In this document: positions 23,260 to 32,899 of the stretch, piece by piece | How the letters are laid out: each line of letters starts with the position of its first letter | Numbering within the stretch: position 1 is the stretch's first letter | Source: Chloroflexota bacterium | Lineage (GTDB): Bacteria > Chloroflexota > Anaerolineae > Aggregatilineales > Phototrophicaceae | Direction of reading: 5' to 3' | Assembly (NCBI GenBank): GCA_026708115.1 | Contig: JAPOVL010000051.1 | Location: 1-64,000 of the forward strand | Length of the DNA: 64,000 nt | The notes under the pieces: generated by a model | Told to the model about the DNA's origin: nothing | Seen by the model: only the letters and a program-made list of their open reading frames with translations | The model's database searches: none | Position numbers and translations under genes: made by a program

Positions 23260-23838
23260 GTGCTTGGATTCGGTTCATCGCGCTATCCACGATCCCTCAG
23301 AATGCTGATACTGTTAGCGGCTGTCTTGCCGATATCGCTTGCGGCGTTGATTGTTACTTCAGTCTTGCAATTGTATGGCATAGCGTACGACATACCGCAA
23401 CTGGTTTATGGCAGTGAACTGGCGGAGCGGCCCGCTTGGATCTTGCTGGGATTGGCTTCGGCAATTGCTGCTGGAATCGTAACCACAACCGCGGCGCGTA
23501 ATCGGCGAAAAAGTCTACCGCGCTCACAGAAAATTGCAAGCGTTCTGCTTGTGCGAGCAAGGTGGTTTGTAAAGCGCGGATTCTTGCGTAAGGCGCGCTG
23601 GAGAGGCGAATTGGTCGTCCGTCCTAACATCAAGAACACCGAGATCGACGCTCACGGCTGTGAAATCACAAACGATACTGATGTCATGCGTTTGCTAGAC
23701 TCTTTGTCAAGAACTGAGCGGGATCTGCTTAGGCAACATCTGGCGGAATCTCGTCTAGCCATCCGTCACGACGGTGTTCTCATTGCTCGTGAACAGGGCG
23801 AAATGAAGCAAGAGATAGGAAAATTCATTCTTCGATAA
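23260..23838 (+). CDS. Membrane protein of unknown function containing an in-frame repeat copy
   Basis: A 192-residue protein with a GTG start. Two hydrophobic segments lie at about 14-40 and 60-78, followed by a basic stretch and a soluble C-terminal domain (LDSLSRTERDLLRQHL, LAIRHDGVLIAREQGEM). The basic stretch from about residue 77 to 105 (AARNRRKSLPRSQK and onwards) is translated from a copy of the dispersed repeat at 23489-23575, inserted without breaking the frame. I do not recognise the family. The C-terminus could interact with a partner, but there is no genomic hint about which one. Confidence 0.6.
   Translation: MLGFGSSRYPRSLRMLILLAAVLPISLAALIVTSVLQLYGIAYDIPQLVYGSELAERPAWILLGLASAIAAGIVTTTAARNRRKSLPRSQKIASVLLVRARWFVKRGFLRKARWRGELVVRPNIKNTEIDAHGCEITNDTDVMRLLDSLSRTERDLLRQHLAESRLAIRHDGVLIAREQGEMKQEIGKFILR
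23489..23575 (+). repeat. Dispersed repeat, copy 4 (subfamily B), inside a coding region
   Basis: The sequence matches the family from CGGCGCGTAATCGGCGAA through CCGCGCTCACAGAAAATTG to GGTTTGTAAAGC. It keeps the host frame open and supplies about 29 mostly basic residues just after the second membrane segment. The two hairpins are degenerate here, as expected if the copy is old or under coding selection. Confidence 0.65.
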
Positions 23839-23958
23839 CTCTCGAAATATGTCTGTAGAGCTAGACGCCGAGATTGCTCAATAATATATTGCGTTTGGAC
23901 AAGTTTGGTGCAATATGCACAAGCAACCTGAAAAAGTGCATAATTCTCTTGCAGTGTG

Positions 23959-23987
23959 TTGACGGGTGGCAAAAGCTTCATTAGAAT
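23959..23987 (+). promoter_or_regulatory. Promoter of the argC operon
   Basis: TTGACG (23959-23964) and TAGAAT (23982-23987) are separated by exactly 17 bases, a good housekeeping sigma-70 match. A start near 23994 would give a leader of about 206 nucleotides ahead of argC. Confidence 0.6.
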
Positions 23988-24028
23988 GCCGTCGAGTGAG
24001 TCAAGCTCGGAATGAAGAAGACCGTAGC

Positions 24029-24118
24029 GTGAACGAATTTTCGCAAGTGAATCCGCGTACGAGGCCAAGGCGCGCAATTGCGCTGATAGAGTTCAGTGTG
24101 GATTTTTTGCATTCCTGA
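24029..24118 (+). CDS. Candidate arginine leader peptide upstream of argC
   Basis: A 29-codon frame opens with GTG at 24029 and stops with TGA at 24116-24118. Codons 10-15 read Arg-Thr-Arg-Pro-Arg-Arg (CGT ACG AGG CCA AGG CGC), so four of six are Arg, two of them the typically rare AGG codon. A perfect 12-bp palindrome GCGCAATTGCGC (24072-24083) begins at the last Arg codon, and an intrinsic terminator follows 30 bases after the stop. This layout is that of a transcription attenuator sensing charged tRNA-Arg. The ribosome binding site is weak (GAAGAAGACC), and a six-codon ATG frame (24012) overlaps the GTG. Function is inferred from position and composition alone. Confidence 0.4.
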   Translation: MNEFSQVNPRTRPRRAIALIEFSVDFLHS

Positions 24119-24148
24119 TGCGCCGCTTTGACTAGTCGTTGAAAGGAC

Positions 24149-24182
24149 ACCCTGATCTCGAAATGATGGTCGGGGTTTTTTG
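24149..24182 (+). terminator. Intrinsic terminator in the argC leader (probable attenuator)
   Basis: ACCCTGATC (24149-24157) pairs with GGTCGGGGT (24168-24176) through nine pairs, two of them G-U, around a ten-base loop. A run of six T then G and TTT follows. It ends only about 18 bases before the argC ATG, which suits attenuation better than simple termination of the upstream gene. GGCGC at 24070-24074 can pair with GCGCC at 24120-24124 as a possible competing structure. Confidence 0.65.
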
Positions 24183-24199
24183 TTTGTGGGGGAATTGCT

Positions 24200-25201
24200 A
24201 TGAGCAGAATACGAGTTGGCGTATTTGGCGGATCTGGTTACGCCGGTCTGGATCTTGTTGAGTTGCTGAATACGCATCCTAATGTAGAGCTTGCATTTGC
24301 GACATCCAATACCTATGTTGGGGATGCCGTCCCGGGAAGCGATCTGTCATTTGCGTCTCCGGAGTCTGTTTCGCTCGATGCCGTCGATGTGATATTCCTG
24401 GCGCTTCCTCACAAGGCATCCGCCGAAGTAGCCAGACAAGGTGTGGACGCTGGGGTCAAGGTGGTAGACCTGTCGGCTGATCTGCGTCTCGATACGGCCG
24501 AAAGCTATGAAGAGAGTTATGGGATTCCGCATCCGCATCCGGAATTGCTGCCAACGTCCTACGGCTTGCCCGAGATCAATCGCGCCGATATCATCGACCA
24601 GGATTTGATCGCGACACCGGGTTGTTACCCAACGACGACATTGCTCGGTCTATTTCCCTTATTGCGTTGTGGTGGAATCCGTCATGATGCCCCCATCATT
24701 GTCGACGCAAAGTCGGGCGTGACCGGCGCAGGGCGCAAGCCCTCGCTTAGTACGCATTTTGCCGAAGTATATGGCAATCTCACGCCATACAAGACGGGCC
24801 GATCCCATCGCCACGTCGGCGAAATGGAGCAAGAGGCGCTCAAAGTGGACAGGGACATTGGTCCTATTATCTTTTGCCCGCATTTGCTGCCGGTGGATCG
24901 CGGGTTGATGTCCAGCATCTATGTCACGCTCGACGACTCGCTTTCCAGCGGACAGGCATATGATCTCTTCTGCGAAGTTTACGACAACGAGGCTTTGGTG
25001 GATGTGCTTCCGCTCGGCGAACAAGCCAGCCTGAAGCACGCAGTGAAGACCAACAAATGCATTATCAGCATCACGCCGGTATTGCGGCAGTATCTTCACG
25101 TCACGAGCGTCACGGACAATCTACGCAAAGGGGCTTCGAGCCAAGCTGTGCAAAACATGAATCTGATGTTTGGGATCGATGAAACGCTGGGATTAATCTA
25201 G
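24200..25201 (+). CDS. argC: N-acetyl-gamma-glutamyl-phosphate reductase
   Basis: This 333-residue enzyme reduces N-acetylglutamyl phosphate to the semialdehyde with NADPH, the third step of ornithine synthesis. The Rossmann motif is GVFGGSGYAGLDL at 7-19, the catalytic Cys is in ATPGCYPTTT near 139, and the conserved His-containing block is YKTGRSHRHVGEMEQE near 197-212. It is the first gene of argC-argB-argD-argJ. Its ATG follows the leader terminator by about 18 bases, with GTGGGGG as the likely ribosome binding site. The stop overlaps the argB start by one base. Confidence 0.95.
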   Translation: MSRIRVGVFGGSGYAGLDLVELLNTHPNVELAFATSNTYVGDAVPGSDLSFASPESVSLDAVDVIFLALPHKASAEVARQGVDAGVKVVDLSADLRLDTAESYEESYGIPHPHPELLPTSYGLPEINRADIIDQDLIATPGCYPTTTLLGLFPLLRCGGIRHDAPIIVDAKSGVTGAGRKPSLSTHFAEVYGNLTPYKTGRSHRHVGEMEQEALKVDRDIGPIIFCPHLLPVDRGLMSSIYVTLDDSLSSGQAYDLFCEVYDNEALVDVLPLGEQASLKHAVKTNKCIISITPVLRQYLHVTSVTDNLRKGASSQAVQNMNLMFGIDETLGLI

Positions 25202-25950
25202 TGGGTAGCGTTATTTCCTTGGTCAAGATCTCCGGTCATTATCTGGATGATGATGCGTTGCTGCAGCAGTTTGCGGGGGCTGTCGCCGAGCGAGAGGAGC
25301 AATTGGTCATCGTGCATGGCGGTGGCATCGAGATAACCCGATTGCAGGAACGTCTCAATATTGAACCAACATACGTGGACGGGCTGAGAGTCACAGACGC
25401 CCAGTCCTTGTCGCTGGTAGAAATGGTGCTCTGTGGGAGTGTCAATAAGCGGCTGGTGCGGCATTTGCTCAACGCCGGAGTGGATGCGCAAGGCTTGTCG
25501 GGCGTCGATCGTGGTCTAGTACGAGCTCGACAAATGCAGCACGAGTCGGTGGATATGCAGTTTACCGGGACTGTGACCTCAGTGCGGGGCGAAGTCCTCA
25601 TTCAGTTGCTGGAGCTTGGTGTGACACCGGTGATCGCGCCAGTCAGCGCCGGGATTGACAGCAACTTCAATCTAAATGCAGACCCGGTCTCTGGAGCGCT
25701 GGCGGCGGCAATAGGCGCCGACAGTGTCGTTTTCATTTCCAATGTATCGGGTGTCTTGATGGACAACGATCTCGTTGAGAGACTCAGTGAAGCTGAAGCG
25801 CAAGAGTTGATCGCTGACGGGATCATATATGGCGGCATGATACCGAAAGTCAAATCGGCGCTGGATGTGCTATCATCTGGCGTGCCCAAGGCCATCATCA
25901 CGGATTTGGATGGCTGGGCATGCGATGTTGGAACGACATTTGTACAATAG
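25201..25950 (+). CDS. argB: Acetylglutamate kinase
   Basis: A 249-residue amino-acid kinase that phosphorylates N-acetylglutamate. Features are SLVKISGHYLDD at the N-terminus, the substrate loop VHGGGIEIT near 38-46, the NADPV block (FNLNADPVSGALA) near 155, and GGMIPKV near 212 with the catalytic lysine. The short N-terminus lacks the extra helix found in hexameric, arginine-inhibited ArgB. It may therefore be less sensitive to feedback inhibition, which would fit control by leader attenuation; this is inference. The GTG start at 25201 shares its G with the argC stop. Confidence 0.93.
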   Translation: MGSVISLVKISGHYLDDDALLQQFAGAVAEREEQLVIVHGGGIEITRLQERLNIEPTYVDGLRVTDAQSLSLVEMVLCGSVNKRLVRHLLNAGVDAQGLSGVDRGLVRARQMQHESVDMQFTGTVTSVRGEVLIQLLELGVTPVIAPVSAGIDSNFNLNADPVSGALAAAIGADSVVFISNVSGVLMDNDLVERLSEAEAQELIADGIIYGGMIPKVKSALDVLSSGVPKAIITDLDGWACDVGTTFVQ

Positions 25951-25978
25951 CTATCGTGAAGTTGGACAGAGGGATGGG

Positions 25979-27181
25979 ATGACTCTTCAAAGCGAAGTAA
26001 TTCAGAAAGATCAAGCGTATAGCGTACCGGTCGCGGCACGTCCGGATTTCGTATTGGCGAGGGGAGAAGGGGTCACGGTCTACGATACGGAAGGCAAGGC
26101 GTATACCGACTGGGTTGCCGGTATCGCCGTGAATGCCTTGGGCTACGGTGACGAAGAACTGACGGCGGTTGTCAATCAGCAGATGAACACCGGCTTGATC
26201 CATGTCAGCGGACTGTATCATACGCAGGCGCTTGCGGAGCTTGCTGAATTGCTGTGCACGCATTCCTTCGCCAACAAAGTCTACTTTTGCAACAGCGGCG
26301 CCGAAGCGAACGAAGGCGCGCTAAAGTTCGCCCGCAAGCTGGCCTATGTCAACGAAAAACCGAACAAGACCAAAGTGGTTAGTTTTACCGAGGCCTTTCA
26401 TGGTAGAACGATGGGCGCCTTGGCAATCACACCCAAAGAGAAGTATCAGACCCCGTTTAAGCCGATGGTGCCCGGGGCGGTGGTAGGGGAATTCAACGAT
26501 ATTGACAGCGCCAGAGAAGTCATTGATGAAGATACGGTGGCGGTGATCGTCGAGCCCTTGCAAGGCGAAGGCGGTATCAACATTGCCACAGCGGAGTTTC
26601 TTCAAGCATTGCGTCAACTATGTGACGAGAAAGGCGCGACGCTCATTTTCGACGAGATTCAGTGCGGACTTGGACGCACAGGCGACCTGTGGGGGCACAG
26701 CTTCAGCGGCATAACGCCGGACATTATGACTCTGGCCAAACCCTTGGCAGGTGGTCTGCCTGTCGGCGCCATCTTGACAAGCGAGGCCGTGGGCAGCGCG
26801 ATGGAACCGGGCGATCACGGGTCGACGTTTTCCGGGGGCGCGGTTGTGATGCGCGCGGCGGAGATGGTTGTCAATCGTGTATTGAGCGACGGATTCCTCG
26901 AACACGTGAAAGAAGTCGGCGACTACCTGTTGGAGCGCCTTTCGGAAATCAACAGCCCACATATCAAAGACGTACGTGGTCGGGGCCTCATGGCGGGAAT
27001 CGAGCTGGATGTCGCGCCGGCTGATATCGTGCAAAAGGGTTACGAACATGGTTTGCTGCTGGTCAATTCGGGCGCCAACGTGATTCGCTTTGTTCCACCT
27101 TTGATCATCGAAAAGAAACACGTCGATGAATTGGCGGAAAAACTGACGGTCATACTGGAGGAAGTCGATGATCAAGATTAG
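25979..27181 (+). CDS. argD: Acetylornithine aminotransferase
   Basis: A 400-residue class III PLP-dependent aminotransferase. It makes N-acetylornithine from the semialdehyde with glutamate as donor. Landmarks are the pyrophosphate loop NSGAEANEGALKFAR, FHGRTMGALA, the aspartate block LIFDEIQCGLGRTG, and the PLP lysine in MTLAKPLAGGLPVG. The start at 25979 is preceded by CAGAGGGA and fits the family N-terminus. A longer in-frame opening at 25865 lies within argB. Lysine biosynthetic DapC activity is possible in this family, but the operon assigns it to arginine. It overlaps argJ by 14 bp. Confidence 0.92.
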   Translation: MTLQSEVIQKDQAYSVPVAARPDFVLARGEGVTVYDTEGKAYTDWVAGIAVNALGYGDEELTAVVNQQMNTGLIHVSGLYHTQALAELAELLCTHSFANKVYFCNSGAEANEGALKFARKLAYVNEKPNKTKVVSFTEAFHGRTMGALAITPKEKYQTPFKPMVPGAVVGEFNDIDSAREVIDEDTVAVIVEPLQGEGGINIATAEFLQALRQLCDEKGATLIFDEIQCGLGRTGDLWGHSFSGITPDIMTLAKPLAGGLPVGAILTSEAVGSAMEPGDHGSTFSGGAVVMRAAEMVVNRVLSDGFLEHVKEVGDYLLERLSEINSPHIKDVRGRGLMAGIELDVAPADIVQKGYEHGLLLVNSGANVIRFVPPLIIEKKHVDELAEKLTVILEEVDDQD

Positions 27182-28397
27182 CCCCAACATTCGTTCTGTA
27201 ACTGGATTCCATGCCGCCGGCGTTCATGCGGGCCTGAAAAAGGACGGCGCGCTGGACTTTGCGCTGATCAGCAGCGAGACCGATTGTGTGACTGCCGGTG
27301 TCTTTACCCGCAACAAGGTCAAAGCGGCGCCCGTGCTTTTGAACATGGAACGCTTGCGAGAAAAGGCGTCGGGCATCCGCGCCGTTGCCATCAATACGGT
27401 TAGCGCAAATGCCTGTACCGGCGCCCTGGGCTTGGAAAACGCCCGCGCAAGCTCGGAGCTGGTTGCCGAGCGCCTGGCGATCGCTAGCGACCAGGTCCTG
27501 GTGATGTCGACCGGCGTCATCGGTACCCACTTGCCGATGGACAAGATGGCGCGCGGTGTCGCGCTGGCCAGCGAGAATCTGGGAAACGACTGGTCAGCAG
27601 CCGCCGCCGGCATCATGACAACAGACACGCGCCCCAAACTTGGCTCCGTCACCATCCCGACGAGCAAGGGACCAGTTAGCTTGGCGGGCATCGTCAAAGG
27701 CGCAGGCATGATCGCGCCAGATATGGCAACCATGCTCAGCGTCATTGTGACCGATGCCAGCCTCGAGCTGCCATTGGCGGGGGCGGCGCTTTCCGCGGCG
27801 ACTCGGCAAAGCTATAACCGCATCGTCATCGACGGCGATACCAGCACCAATGACATGGTCGTTCTGATGTGTAATGGCGCCAGCGGCGTCGATATCTCGG
27901 ACGAAGCAGATGTCGAGCTATTCCAAGCCGCGTTGAATGCCCTGGCCAGGTACCTGGCGCAAGAGGTGGTGCGTGATGGCGAGGGCGTGACGAAATTCGT
28001 CACGCTTGACATACGCAACGCCGAGTCGGTCGCGGCAGCCGAGCGCATCGGACAGACGATCGGCGCCTCCGTTTTGACCAAGTCCGCCTTTTATGGCAAC
28101 GACGCCAATTGGGGACGAATCATGGCGGCAGCGGGCCGCGCCGAAGCCGCTTTTGATCCCGACAGTTCATCGCTGTTTGTCGCGGCTGGTGAGTCGATTC
28201 CGGCGGCGGAGAGAAACTTGCTCATCTTCAGCCAGGGGATGCCGACCGACTACCTTGAAGACGATGCCGCCGCCATCATGGCCGAACCGTCAATCTATTT
28301 CACCTTGGATTGTGGCCTGGGCGCGGCTGAAGCGACAATTTGGACCTGCGATATTAGTCACGACTACATCACAATTAATGGCGACTATCGTTCTTGA
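27168..28397 (+). CDS. argJ: Glutamate N-acetyltransferase / amino-acid acetyltransferase
   Basis: This 409-residue self-cleaving enzyme moves the acetyl group from N-acetylornithine to glutamate, which recycles it and makes the pathway cyclic. The autocleavage site is before Thr in the motif APDMATMLSVIVTDA near 190, giving alpha and beta chains. NDANWGRIMAAAGRAEA near 315 is the other signature. No argA is visible, so ArgJ may be bifunctional and also use acetyl-CoA. It overlaps argD and is the last gene before a dispersed repeat and carA. Confidence 0.94.
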   Translation: MIKISPNIRSVTGFHAAGVHAGLKKDGALDFALISSETDCVTAGVFTRNKVKAAPVLLNMERLREKASGIRAVAINTVSANACTGALGLENARASSELVAERLAIASDQVLVMSTGVIGTHLPMDKMARGVALASENLGNDWSAAAAGIMTTDTRPKLGSVTIPTSKGPVSLAGIVKGAGMIAPDMATMLSVIVTDASLELPLAGAALSAATRQSYNRIVIDGDTSTNDMVVLMCNGASGVDISDEADVELFQAALNALARYLAQEVVRDGEGVTKFVTLDIRNAESVAAAERIGQTIGASVLTKSAFYGNDANWGRIMAAAGRAEAAFDPDSSSLFVAAGESIPAAERNLLIFSQGMPTDYLEDDAAAIMAEPSIYFTLDCGLGAAEATIWTCDISHDYITINGDYRS

Positions 28398-28508: not shown

Positions 28509-29630
28509 ATGCGCGCTGCGCTAGTGCTAGAAGACGGAAGGGTTTTCCCGGGCGACGGCTTTGGGGCTGAAGGCGTCCAAACCGGTGAAATCGTATTCAA
28601 CACGTCTATGACGGGTTATCAAGAGATTCTGACCGATCCCTCATATTATCGTCAGGTTGTGGCGATGACTGTGCCTCACGTCGGCAATACGGGCGTGAAT
28701 CTGGAAGATCCGGAATCGAAAAGAGTCTGGGTTTCAGGCTTTGTGGTGCGTTCGCTTAGCCCCATCGTCAGCAATTGGCGCAATCGCGGCGACCTGGCGA
28801 CCTATCTGCGTGACAACGCTGTCATCGGCGTTTCCGGGGTTGCCACCCGCGCGTTGGTGCGGCATATCCGCGAAAAGGGTGTCATGCGAGCGGCAGTGGC
28901 TCATGGCGATGCGGCGCTGAATACGGATCGGTTAACGGCGATTGCGCGCGCGTCGCTCGACATGTCCGGCGCCAACCTGGTCGACGCCGTCACAGTTTCG
29001 CAGGCCTACGAGTGGCGCCAGGGCAGCGATCCACAGTGGTACGGCGGTTCAAGCTTGGCTCGCGAGCGTCCGCTGGTTGTGGCATACGACTTTGGCATCA
29101 AACACAATATATTGCGCATGATGACGGATCGCGGCCTGCGAGTCAAAGTTGTCCCAGCGCAGACTTCTCCTCGCGATGTGCGCGCGCTGCGGCCCTCGGG
29201 CTTGTTCCTCAGCAACGGCCCAGGCGATCCGGCAGCGGTGGATTACGCGATCGAGAATGTGAGATCCCTGCTGGGAGAACTGCCGATTTTCGGCATTTGC
29301 CTCGGCCACCAGATTCTCGCGCTAGCGCTGGGAGGGAAAACCGAAAAAATGCGCTTCGGGCACCGTGGGGGCAATCAACCGGTGAAGAATCTGCACAACG
29401 GCGAAGTAGAGATAGCGACGCACAATCATGGATTCGCGGTTTCAGCGGATAGCGACCTGGGCGGCGGCGAAGTGACCCATGTTAACTTGAACGACAATAC
29501 AGTTGCCGGACTTCGTCATGAAGTCTTGCGGGCCTTTAGTGTTCAATACCATCCCGAGGCTGCGCCGGGTCCACACGATTCAATGTACCTGTTTGACGAA
29601 TACGTAGCGGCGGTTCAAACACCGCTTTAG
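28509..29630 (+). CDS. carA: Carbamoyl-phosphate synthase, small (glutaminase) subunit
   Basis: A 373-residue glutamine amidotransferase subunit. It hydrolyses glutamine and passes ammonia to CarB. Residues 1-150 form the CarA N-terminal domain (LVLEDGRVFPGDGFG, VFNTSMTGYQEILTDPSY). The class I glutaminase triad is Cys in FGICLGHQILALALGG near 262 and His-Glu in VQYHPEAAPGP near 345. The neighbours argCBDJ upstream and carB 47 bp downstream point to supply for arginine and pyrimidines. Translation probably initiates from a ribosome binding site delivered by the repeat. Confidence 0.95.
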   Translation: MRAALVLEDGRVFPGDGFGAEGVQTGEIVFNTSMTGYQEILTDPSYYRQVVAMTVPHVGNTGVNLEDPESKRVWVSGFVVRSLSPIVSNWRNRGDLATYLRDNAVIGVSGVATRALVRHIREKGVMRAAVAHGDAALNTDRLTAIARASLDMSGANLVDAVTVSQAYEWRQGSDPQWYGGSSLARERPLVVAYDFGIKHNILRMMTDRGLRVKVVPAQTSPRDVRALRPSGLFLSNGPGDPAAVDYAIENVRSLLGELPIFGICLGHQILALALGGKTEKMRFGHRGGNQPVKNLHNGEVEIATHNHGFAVSADSDLGGGEVTHVNLNDNTVAGLRHEVLRAFSVQYHPEAAPGPHDSMYLFDEYVAAVQTPL

Positions 29631-29677
29631 CAACCCTTTGATGCCTTTGGCAGTCCTCTTAATTACGGACTATATCA

Positions 29678-32600
29678 ATGCCCAAACGGTCAGATATCAA
29701 GACAATCATGATCATCGGTTCCGGGCCGATTGTCATTGGACAAGCCTGCGAATTCGATTATAGCGGCGTACAGGCCTGCAAAGCCTTGAAGCAAAAGGGA
29801 TATCGCATTGTCTTGCTTAACTCCAACCCGGCCACGATTATGACCGATCCCGAATTTGCCGACGCAACATATATCGAACCGCTGACCACCTACATCTGCG
29901 AAAAGATCATAGCCAAGGAAAGGCCCGACGCCTTGCTGCCCACAGTTGGCGGACAGACCGCGCTTAATCTTGCCGTGGAATTGCAAGAGGCCGGCTTGCT
30001 GGAGCGATTCGGCGTGGACTTAATCGGCGCGACCCTGACCAGCATTCAACTTGCGGAAGACCGGCAACTGTTCAATGAGACAATGACTGAGATCGGCCTG
30101 CGCGTACCAGATAGCAAAGTGGTCGGCAATGTCGAGGAAGCCTTGTCCTTCGCCGCCCACATCGGCTATCCGGTTTTGATCCGCCCGTCGTTCACAATGG
30201 GCGGCGCCGGGGGTGGCGTGGCCTATGATGCGGACGAACTGCGCGCGGTGGCGGCAAATGGCATTCGTCAAAGCCCGGTCGGGCAGGTGCTCGTGGACAA
30301 GAGCCTGCTCGGCTGGAAGGAATACGAACTCGAGTTAATGCGCGACGCCAAAGGTAACTTTGTCGTCGTCTGTTCGATAGAAAACCTCGACCCGATGGGC
30401 GTGCATACGGGTGACAGCATTACCATTGCCCCGGCCCAGACGCTTACGGACAAGGAATTGCAGCGACTACGCAATATGTCCCGCCTGATATTTGACCGCG
30501 TGGGCATCACGACCGGCGGCGCGAACGTGCAGTTCGCCATCAACCCCGATGATGGCGACGTCTATGTGATCGAGATGAATCCGCGCGTATCCCGTTCCTC
30601 CGCCCTGGCTAGCAAAGCCACCGGCTTTCCTATCGCCAAGATCGCTGCGCTGCTCGCGGTCGGTTTCACCTTGGACGAGATCGCCAACGACATCACCCGG
30701 CAGACGCCCGCCAGTTTCGAGCCGTCGCTGGACTATGTCGTGGTCAAGATTCCCCGCTGGGATTTCAAGAAGTTTGCGGGCGCGGATCCGGTTTTGGGTC
30801 CCCAGATGAAAGCGGTGGGCGAGGTCATGGCGATCGGCAGGACCTTTCCCGAAGCCCTGCAAAAGGCCGTCCGCTCGCTCGATATCGGCATTGACGGATT
30901 CGGCAGCCAGGCGCGCGAGCATCTATCGCCGGAAGCGCTTGCCGTGCCGACGGCACAGCGCTTGTTCCAGGTGGCGACGGTGATTGGCGAAAGGGTCCAA
31001 ATTGATGAAATCGTTCGCCAGACGCGCTTCGACCCCTGGTTTGTCCAGCAAATGAGCGAGTTAATGGCGATTCACAATACGCTGCTGGACAAGGGACTGC
31101 GCCTTTCCGATCTGGATCAACGCGATATGCTCAAGCTGAAACGCTACGGATTCAGCGACGCCTACATTGCTGGACTATTGGAGGAAGAAGAACTTACCGT
31201 TCGGCATCATCGCAAGTCGCTGGGCGTCTCTGCCAATTTCTATCGCGTCGATACCTGTGCCGCGGAATTCGAAGCGCATACACCTTACCTATATTCGACT
31301 TACGAAATGGACGACGAAGCCGAGCCCGTCCCGACCCGCAAAGTGATGATTCTAGGCGGCGGGCCCAATCGTATCGGTCAAGGGATCGAGTTCGATTACT
31401 GTTGCGTCCACGCTTGCTTCGCACTGCGGGAGATGGGCTTCGAGACCATTATGGTGAATTGCAATCCGGAAACGGTCAGCACCGACTACGACACGGCTGA
31501 TCGCTTGTATTTCGAGCCGCTGACAGCGGAAGACGTCATGAACATTGTCGACCGTGAAGGGCCGGATGGCATACTGGTGCAATTTGGTGGGCAGACGCCG
31601 CTAAATATCGCCCGCGACTTGCAGCGGATGGGCGCGCCAATTTGGGGCACGTCAGTTGATACGATTGACCTTGCAGAAGATAGAGAACGCTTCAATGCCC
31701 TCATGGGCGAACTTAATATCATGCAACCGGCGGGCGCGACGATTGTTACGAGAAACGATGCCGCGCTGGCTGCTGGTCGCATTGGTTATCCGGTGCTGGT
31801 ACGTCCCAGTTATGTCTTGGGTGGGCGCGGCATGGCGATAGTTTTTGACGAGTGTCAACTGCTAGCCTGGCTGGACAATAACGTGACTTGGGGCGGCCAT
31901 CCTGTGTTGCTCGATCAATTCTTGGACGATGCCTACGAAGTCGATGTGGACGCGCTGGCGGATGGCAGGCAAGTTACAATTGGCGGAATCATGCAGCACA
32001 TCGAACAAGCCGGCGTGCACAGCGGCGATTCCGCCTGTGTTGCGCCGCCCTACAGAATCAGTTATTTTCATTTGGATGTGATTAGAGACTATACTCGGCG
32101 CATTGGCAAGGCGCTGGGCATCAAGGGACTGTTTAACATACAGTTTGCGGTCAAGGATGATGAAGTGTACGTGCTGGAAGTGAATCCGCGCTCCAGTCGG
32201 ACCGTGCCTTTTATCAGCAAGGCTATTGGACATCCACTGGCGCGCTACGCCGCGGAAATCGCCGCTGGCAGGACGCTGCAAGAGATTGGATTTGTTTCGG
32301 AACCCGCCACAGACGGTTTTTTTGTTAAGGAAGCAGTGTTTCCCTTTCAGAAGTTCCCGGGGGTCGATACGCGTCTGGGACCGGAGATGCGGTCGACGGG
32401 AGAGGTGATGGGGCACGCATCGTCATTCGGTCACGCCTATGTAAAGGCGCAAGCGGCCGCGGGCACGCCCTTGCCGGTGGATGGCACCGTGTTCATCAGC
32501 GTTAATGACTTTGACAAGGCGGTTGTCGCCAAGATTGCCAGAGACCTGGTTCAGTTCGGCTTCCGACTGGTTGCAACGAATGGAACCGCCAACTGGCTAA

Positions 32601-32899
32601 ACAGCCTGGGAATCAAAGCCAGTCCCGTGAAGAAGCTTTCGCAAGGCGCGCCAAACGTTTTGGACTTGATGCAAAACGGCGGCGTTGATTTGGTGATAAA
32701 CACCCCCAGGGGCGGCCAAGCGCACGAAGACGGCATTCGGATCCGCAGCCAGGCTTACGCTTTGGGCGTACCGATTATTACGACCATGAGCGCGGCGGCG
32801 GCTTCAGTGCAGGGCATTCGGCGACTGCGCGAAAGCCCGCTGAGTGTTCGCAGTTTGCAGTCACATTATGAAGAAAACGGCAGGACAAGCGATAAATGA
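29678..32899 (+). CDS. carB: Carbamoyl-phosphate synthase, large subunit
   Basis: A 1073-residue, full-length synthetase. Two homologous ATP-grasp halves are visible: the first from [21 protein letters not shown] at 10-30 and the second from [19 protein letters not shown] near 555. They make carboxyphosphate and carbamoyl phosphate, respectively. ATP-binding glycine-rich segments [13 protein letters not shown] and [13 protein letters not shown] are intact, as are the [10 protein letters not shown] and EVNPRSSRT metal-binding blocks. The C-terminal MGS-like regulatory domain (about 935-1073) would bind UMP or ornithine. It follows carA and precedes hpt by 15 bp. Confidence 0.96.

Follow-up and report, generated by a model that had tools for sequence, protein, structure and literature searches.

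A probable arginine-specific leader-peptide attenuator before argC in Chloroflexota that lack ArgR

Arginine biosynthesis is the textbook regulon of ArgR, a DNA-binding repressor, and the operon described here raises the question of what governs it where that repressor is not found. Searches identified no ArgR in the 34 genomes of our genus set (PF01316) and none in 150 genomes of the class (PF02863), with control genomes positive in each case; of 201 Chloroflexota genomes sampled evenly, 43 carried ArgR, none of them of this class. The operon lies in a 64,000-nucleotide stretch (the window) of genome G000 (4.83 Mb, 96% complete), whose nearest relatives are Chloroflexi MAGs that would, judging from their isolate names, be associated with sponges. 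It makes arginine and begins, on the forward strand like all features below, with argC (24200-25201; TIGR01850, 322.8 bits), followed by a stretch of overlapping genes (25201-28397) consisting of argB (25201-25950; TIGR00761), argD (ORF 25865-27181; TIGR00707) and argJ (27168-28397; NF003802). From their spacing and shared direction, a carA-like ORF (28509-29630) and a carB-like ORF (29678-32899), both recognized by reading the translations by eye, are probably on the same transcript (28509-32899).

A preliminary description of the locus, made from its letters alone, had pointed to a promoter, a 29-codon ORF with four Arg codons and a terminator 18 nt before argC, and we found all of these in the places it gave. 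The promoter, which would transcribe the leader, is of the sigma-70 type (23959-23987), with TTGACG (23959-23964) and TAGAAT (23982-23987) separated by 17 nt, and TTGAC/TAnAAT is retained in nearly all of the 32 genus members compared. The leader ORF (24029-24118) has a GTG start and a TGA stop, lacks a clear Shine-Dalgarno sequence, and encodes the peptide MNEFSQVNPRTRPRRAIALIEFSVDFLHS; its start is supported by the relative L005, in which an in-frame stop closes the frame just 5' of this GTG. Codons 10, 12, 14 and 15 (CGT, AGG, AGG and CGC; 24056-24073) form the Arg cluster that we propose as the ribosome stall site. Using the frequency of Arg in ten neighbouring genes (6.1% of codons), we computed a chance of ~0.005 that an ORF this size would hold at least four Arg in any six-codon window. 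The clustering alone is suggestive only, in line with the earlier caution that composition would not prove the case, and it was the relatives that decided the matter: since the cluster is conserved across them, a chance origin is negligible. Between the leader ORF and the first structural gene is an intrinsic terminator (24149-24181), a hairpin at 24149-24176 with a T6 tract at 24176-24181 (-14.8 kcal/mol, z -2.7), which ends 18 nt before the argC ATG (24200).

Thirty-two of the 34 genus genomes have an argC of the window type, the remaining two having only a distant argC paralogue, and the order of elements before argC is the same in all 32. A covariance model of the leader found one strong match per genome in these 32 of the 34 genomes, always at argC, with E-values of 1e-17 to 1e-36; the next best match was 6e-4, so that no second target was seen elsewhere in the genus genomes, and argG, the sole other arginine gene checked, had no such leader. 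The Arg cluster is in frame in 32/32 members despite differing codons and indels, and the distance from the first Arg to the stop (39 to 60 nt) always changes in whole-codon steps; the spacing from the stop to the terminator ignores the reading frame. Arg accounts for 18% of the residues of genus leaders and for 20% of those from other families, as against 6% in the ten neighbouring genes, examples from the genus being MSQALSAILEVRRRRLTRFEFSVAFLCC (L007), MLSAQNLKLAKTRRRRDLRLEISVDCLCC (L009), MIGRRRGINMRMEIGADAPDC (L024) and MKMLHLAPQPKRNRRRIYHVEVDINFLCC (L112). The pattern that the preliminary description had looked for in relatives, with Arg cluster, frame and terminator kept while the rest drifts, was thus seen throughout the genus (32/32) and at 17 of 19 argC loci outside it; loss of the cluster or frame, which it had named as grounds for giving up its reading, occurred in none of the 32. 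Since two or more frames carry Arg at some loci, we verified the automatic ORF choice by eye; the wrong automatic picks were segment 2 of L022 in the folding set and the ORF of L030 in the frame set, for which the alignment gives the right ones. Separately, most genus members, though not the window clade, keep the last codons of the leader ORF (TTTGTGTTnnTGA, peptide LC[CLW]), for which we found no pairing partner or role.

The leader carries two strands that could form an antiterminator: segment 2, GAGTTCAGTGTG (24089-24100), inside the ORF, and segment 3, CACCCTGATCTC (24148-24159), which overlaps the terminator 5' arm. Across the genus, segment 2 takes the form GAGTTCAGYGYG, lies within the ORF 1-22 nt past the last Arg codon, and is complementary to CRC-C-CTGATCTC, the terminator 5' arm, making terminator and antiterminator mutually exclusive. 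Over 32 sequences, 95.6% of cells in the antiterminator are standard pairs, compared with 17-51% for slid versions, and pairing as high was reached in none of 500 shuffles; 99.7% of terminator cells are paired over the same number of sequences. Ten antiterminator cells are changed on both sides and three pairs show two-sided changes, with compensatory changes such as AAG:CUU in L020 and GAGGUC:GACCUC in L112, and a UA/CG exchange adjoining the terminator base, at columns 50/105. Most members have a U.U mismatch in this helix, which some replace by A-U or G-U (GAGATC, GAGATT, GAGGTC; we compared L009, L016, L021, L024, L026-L028 and L030 with the rest), and these variants may tune the strength of the switch. 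The preliminary description had suggested other pairings. GGCGC (24069) with GCGCC (24120) can indeed form in the window and has no counterpart of the same form elsewhere, the conserved antiterminator being 24089-24100:24148-24159. The palindrome GCGCAATTGCGC (24072-24083), for its part, is present as described, and occurs only in the six-genome clade of the window, where it is already broken in L004. We rejected both as functional hairpins on account of this confinement to the window clade.

These elements suggest the following mechanism. RNA polymerase would start at the promoter and copy the leader, with a ribosome translating the leader ORF behind it. A shortage of charged tRNA-Arg would stall that ribosome on the Arg cluster and leave segment 2 free to pair with segment 3, sequestering the terminator 5' arm and allowing read-through into argC. 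With ample arginine the ribosome would move over segment 2, segments 3 and 4 would form the terminator, and transcription would end early; in some lineages the leader may instead fold otherwise in this state, with the terminator again formed. Partition function calculations agree with such a switch: for RNA beginning just before segment 2, as with a stalled ribosome, the antiterminator had a mean probability of 0.89, versus 0.34 for the ribosome-free leader, and for the window the values were 0.95 and 0.00. Segment 3 was sequestered more than in shuffled leaders in 32/32 genus members (0.81 vs 0.48), and the antiterminator was predicted even without a ribosome in 12 of the 32. In attenuators of the his/trp type a 1:2 protector or pause hairpin favours termination when no ribosome is stalled; here 1:2 helices are present in some leaders (e.g., L001, L018, L115), and across families their helix score was not above that of shuffles (14.3 vs 13.8 +/- 0.39), for which reason we prefer ribosome occlusion of segment 2 as the explanation of the arginine-rich state. 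Against this, segment 2 in the genus ends 12-22 nt before the stop, and a ribosome halted there would occlude only part of it; the antiterminator predicted without a ribosome in those 12 members and the lack of a clear Shine-Dalgarno sequence in the window leader also weigh against the mechanism.

To see how far the arrangement extends we ran a crude screen of sequence upstream of argC, asking for a terminator preceded by an ORF with four or more Arg within seven codons. Of 19 argC loci taken from further families of the order and other named Chloroflexota, 17 passed; L114, of the same family as the window, and L036 showed no such leader, which counts against the reading. Outside the genus only the Arg run links the otherwise unrelated leader peptides, among them MTLLIAIPVVELRRPRRRPQTNPVWQG (L115), MKIVFNLPRRQSRRTPSTLYGFGQAIARALGVV (L122), MINQTHTTPMLRRADRRRVRIGPGSVIRIG in a Roseiflexaceae MAG (L038) and ELRRVRRRRLQV in an Anaerolinea sp. 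MAG (L070). In the even phylum sample, 109 argC upstream regions were readable, of which 13 passed, with none of the 109 passing on the reverse strand; all 13 come from genomes without ArgR, and none of 24 regions from ArgR-bearing genomes passed, a relationship in which absence of ArgR and presence of the leader are confounded by phylogeny. The screen also fired on 15 of 67 proteobacterial controls. We take the peptides given for these control matches, recognized by eye, to be the C-terminus of ribosomal protein S9 (...RKARRRKQFSKR), which lies upstream of argC there, and we rejected them as leaders. Over 32 leaders from ~15 families, the helix between the segment following the Arg codons and the terminator arm scored a mean of 21.2; shuffling the segment brought this to 15.6 (sd 0.48), and exchanging arms among families to 16.0 (sd 0.55). 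Some helices were perfect or nearly so (GTTCAGGTCTGG:CCGGACCTGAAC in L113, TACGGGTTCGG:CCGGACCCGTA in L122, ATGAGGTTCG:CGAACCTCAT in L119). Since families with different leader sequences show such matched segments and arms, the sequence has turned over while its pairing logic was kept; the Arg-rich frame, the complementarity and the terminator are common to leaders of different families, and nothing else is.

We weighed three other explanations of this region. The terminator might only end transcription of the upstream gene (23260-23838), with the argC promoter lying downstream and the Arg-rich ORF arising by chance. In favour of this, the terminator is on the same strand as that gene, ~310 nt past the gene's stop; against it, the T tract is followed by only ~18 nt before argC, too short for another promoter. 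The preliminary description had itself named this outcome as one that would count against it, and the relatives point the other way: every genus member has the promoter 5' of the leader, argC keeps its terminator even next to a different upstream gene, and the 192-aa upstream neighbour has a full-length match only in the six-genome window clade, yet the leader persists. With an Arg frame kept in 32/32 members, which argues against a chance ORF, and an antiterminator strand that covaries with the terminator arm, we give this explanation almost no credence. It is very unlikely, if not quite to that degree, that something other than stalling on Arg codons does the sensing, such as a riboswitch, a T-box-like RNA or an RNA-binding protein, the ORF being merely permissive. 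Such a sensor could account for parts of the ORF after the Arg codons (GAGTTCAG, TTTGTGTTnnTGA) being conserved as nucleotides within the genus; it fits poorly with indels that preserve the frame up to the stop, with families that have in common only the Arg-rich frame, complementarity and terminator, and with the lack of any Rfam match at E<=1.

Nascent-peptide arrest was also considered, in which ribosome and peptide together sense free arginine (or ornithine) in place of slow decoding of Arg codons; fungal AAP and bacterial SpeFL are arrest switches of this kind, sensing arginine or ornithine. The C-terminal end of the leader peptide is fairly conserved in the genus (FS[AV]xxLC[CLW]*), as an arrest peptide might be, but the window clade ends in LHS and the peptides of other families are unrelated, with only the Arg run common to them. 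Moreover, were arginine itself the cause of arrest, ribosomes would be held in its abundance and read-through favoured, the wrong sign for a biosynthetic operon, and we regard this explanation as extremely improbable. We therefore retain stalling on Arg codons as the preferred reading.

No known RNA family offered an identity for the leader: a search of 23900-24260 gave no Rfam match at E<=1, T-box included, and the Rfam covariance models of His, Leu, Thr and Trp leaders did not match. A T-box, an element that binds uncharged tRNA directly, was found by a search of the same kind before trpE in this genome; in the genus, trpE is preceded by a T-box (RF00230) at L280:1098-1352 and L282:3038-3288 (107 and 106 bits), so that trp and arg in a single genome appear to be controlled by different devices, a T-box and a leader peptide respectively. 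Four genus genomes (L272-L275) have a further small ORF between the upstream gene and leuA, ~110 nt before the leuA match, with a strong Shine-Dalgarno sequence (AAAGGAGG) and a conserved start, MS[ED]DGL. Outside the attenuator proper, just upstream of the -35 box, the element GTGCAA-TGCACAA-N14-TGCATAA (23908-23943), with a TGCAYAA repeat at 21 bp, is present in 32/32 genus members. It is probably an operator for a DNA-binding regulator, in which case the arg operon may be under two layers of control. Conserved elements 5' of the -35 box are also found in L113, L115 and L117 (CCGAACTTTT..CGG) and in L118-L121 (CGAAGTATACGAA), which suggests lineage-specific operators.

Bacterial biosynthetic operons with leader-peptide attenuators are known for a few other amino acids, the majority of cases coming from Proteobacteria and Actinobacteria. 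The arrangement described here shares with the his, trp, leu, thr, ilv and phe attenuators of Proteobacteria a promoter, a short ORF in which codons for the operon's product run together, an intrinsic terminator with an antiterminator that excludes it, and a biosynthetic operon downstream, and the earlier reading of it as a his/trp-type attenuator is supported by the relatives and by the absence of ArgR. It differs in being specific for arginine, in occurring in Chloroflexota and in having no sequence relation to them, and, compared with the his/trp type, in usually having the antiterminator strand inside the leader ORF and in a 1:2 protector hairpin that finds no support across families. In a survey taking in Chloroflexi, the attenuator specificities listed were His, Leu, Thr, Trp, Ile/Val and Phe, and no others (PMC3766115). 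In 2010, His leader peptides of Firmicutes were reported as a new finding beyond Proteobacteria and Actinobacteria (PMC2965389), and an examination of Actinobacteria for attenuators gave none for arginine and mentioned arginine T-boxes (PMC1262725). A similar case of sensing is the Salmonella speF leader orf34, a bacterial ORF in which two adjacent Arg codons (AGG CGG) stall the ribosome under low arginine and so alter downstream RNA folding (PMC6386406); unlike the leader here, it controls ornithine decarboxylase through Rho, translation and RNase G, with no intrinsic terminator or arginine operon (PMC6386406). The leader peptide rbfL of Staphylococcus aureus likewise has Arg codons and senses arginine shortage, but acts on translation, covering the ribosome-binding site of a biofilm regulator whose synthesis it thereby represses, and is no transcription attenuator (PMC13009471). 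Arginine T-boxes and ArgR with its ARG box exert the same arginine-dependent control of arg genes, and neither was detected here. In the open-access papers searched we found no leader-peptide attenuator of an arginine operon, nor any in Chloroflexi, which agrees with the earlier suggestion that this would be a new case; an earlier prediction may exist in subscription papers.

Taken as a whole, the evidence makes it highly probable that the region before argC governs the argCBDJ(-carAB) operon by ribosome-mediated transcription attenuation, with charged tRNA-Arg as the signal sensed; leader translation, stalling, termination and the response to arginine are what we infer from sequence. An arginine-specific leader-peptide attenuator most likely stands in for ArgR here. 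We also think it likely, with somewhat less assurance, that such attenuators constitute a class with unrelated sequences and one architecture across Anaerolineae and parts of Chloroflexia, replacing ArgR in a phylum for which we found no such attenuator described. An arginine attenuator kept without ArgR across much of a phylum would widen the specificity of the mechanism as well as its range, and the leader shows how arginine control may be managed without a repressor. Many diverged natural variants would be available in which only the logic of the switch is common, and an overlooked small ORF would become annotatable in many Chloroflexota genomes.
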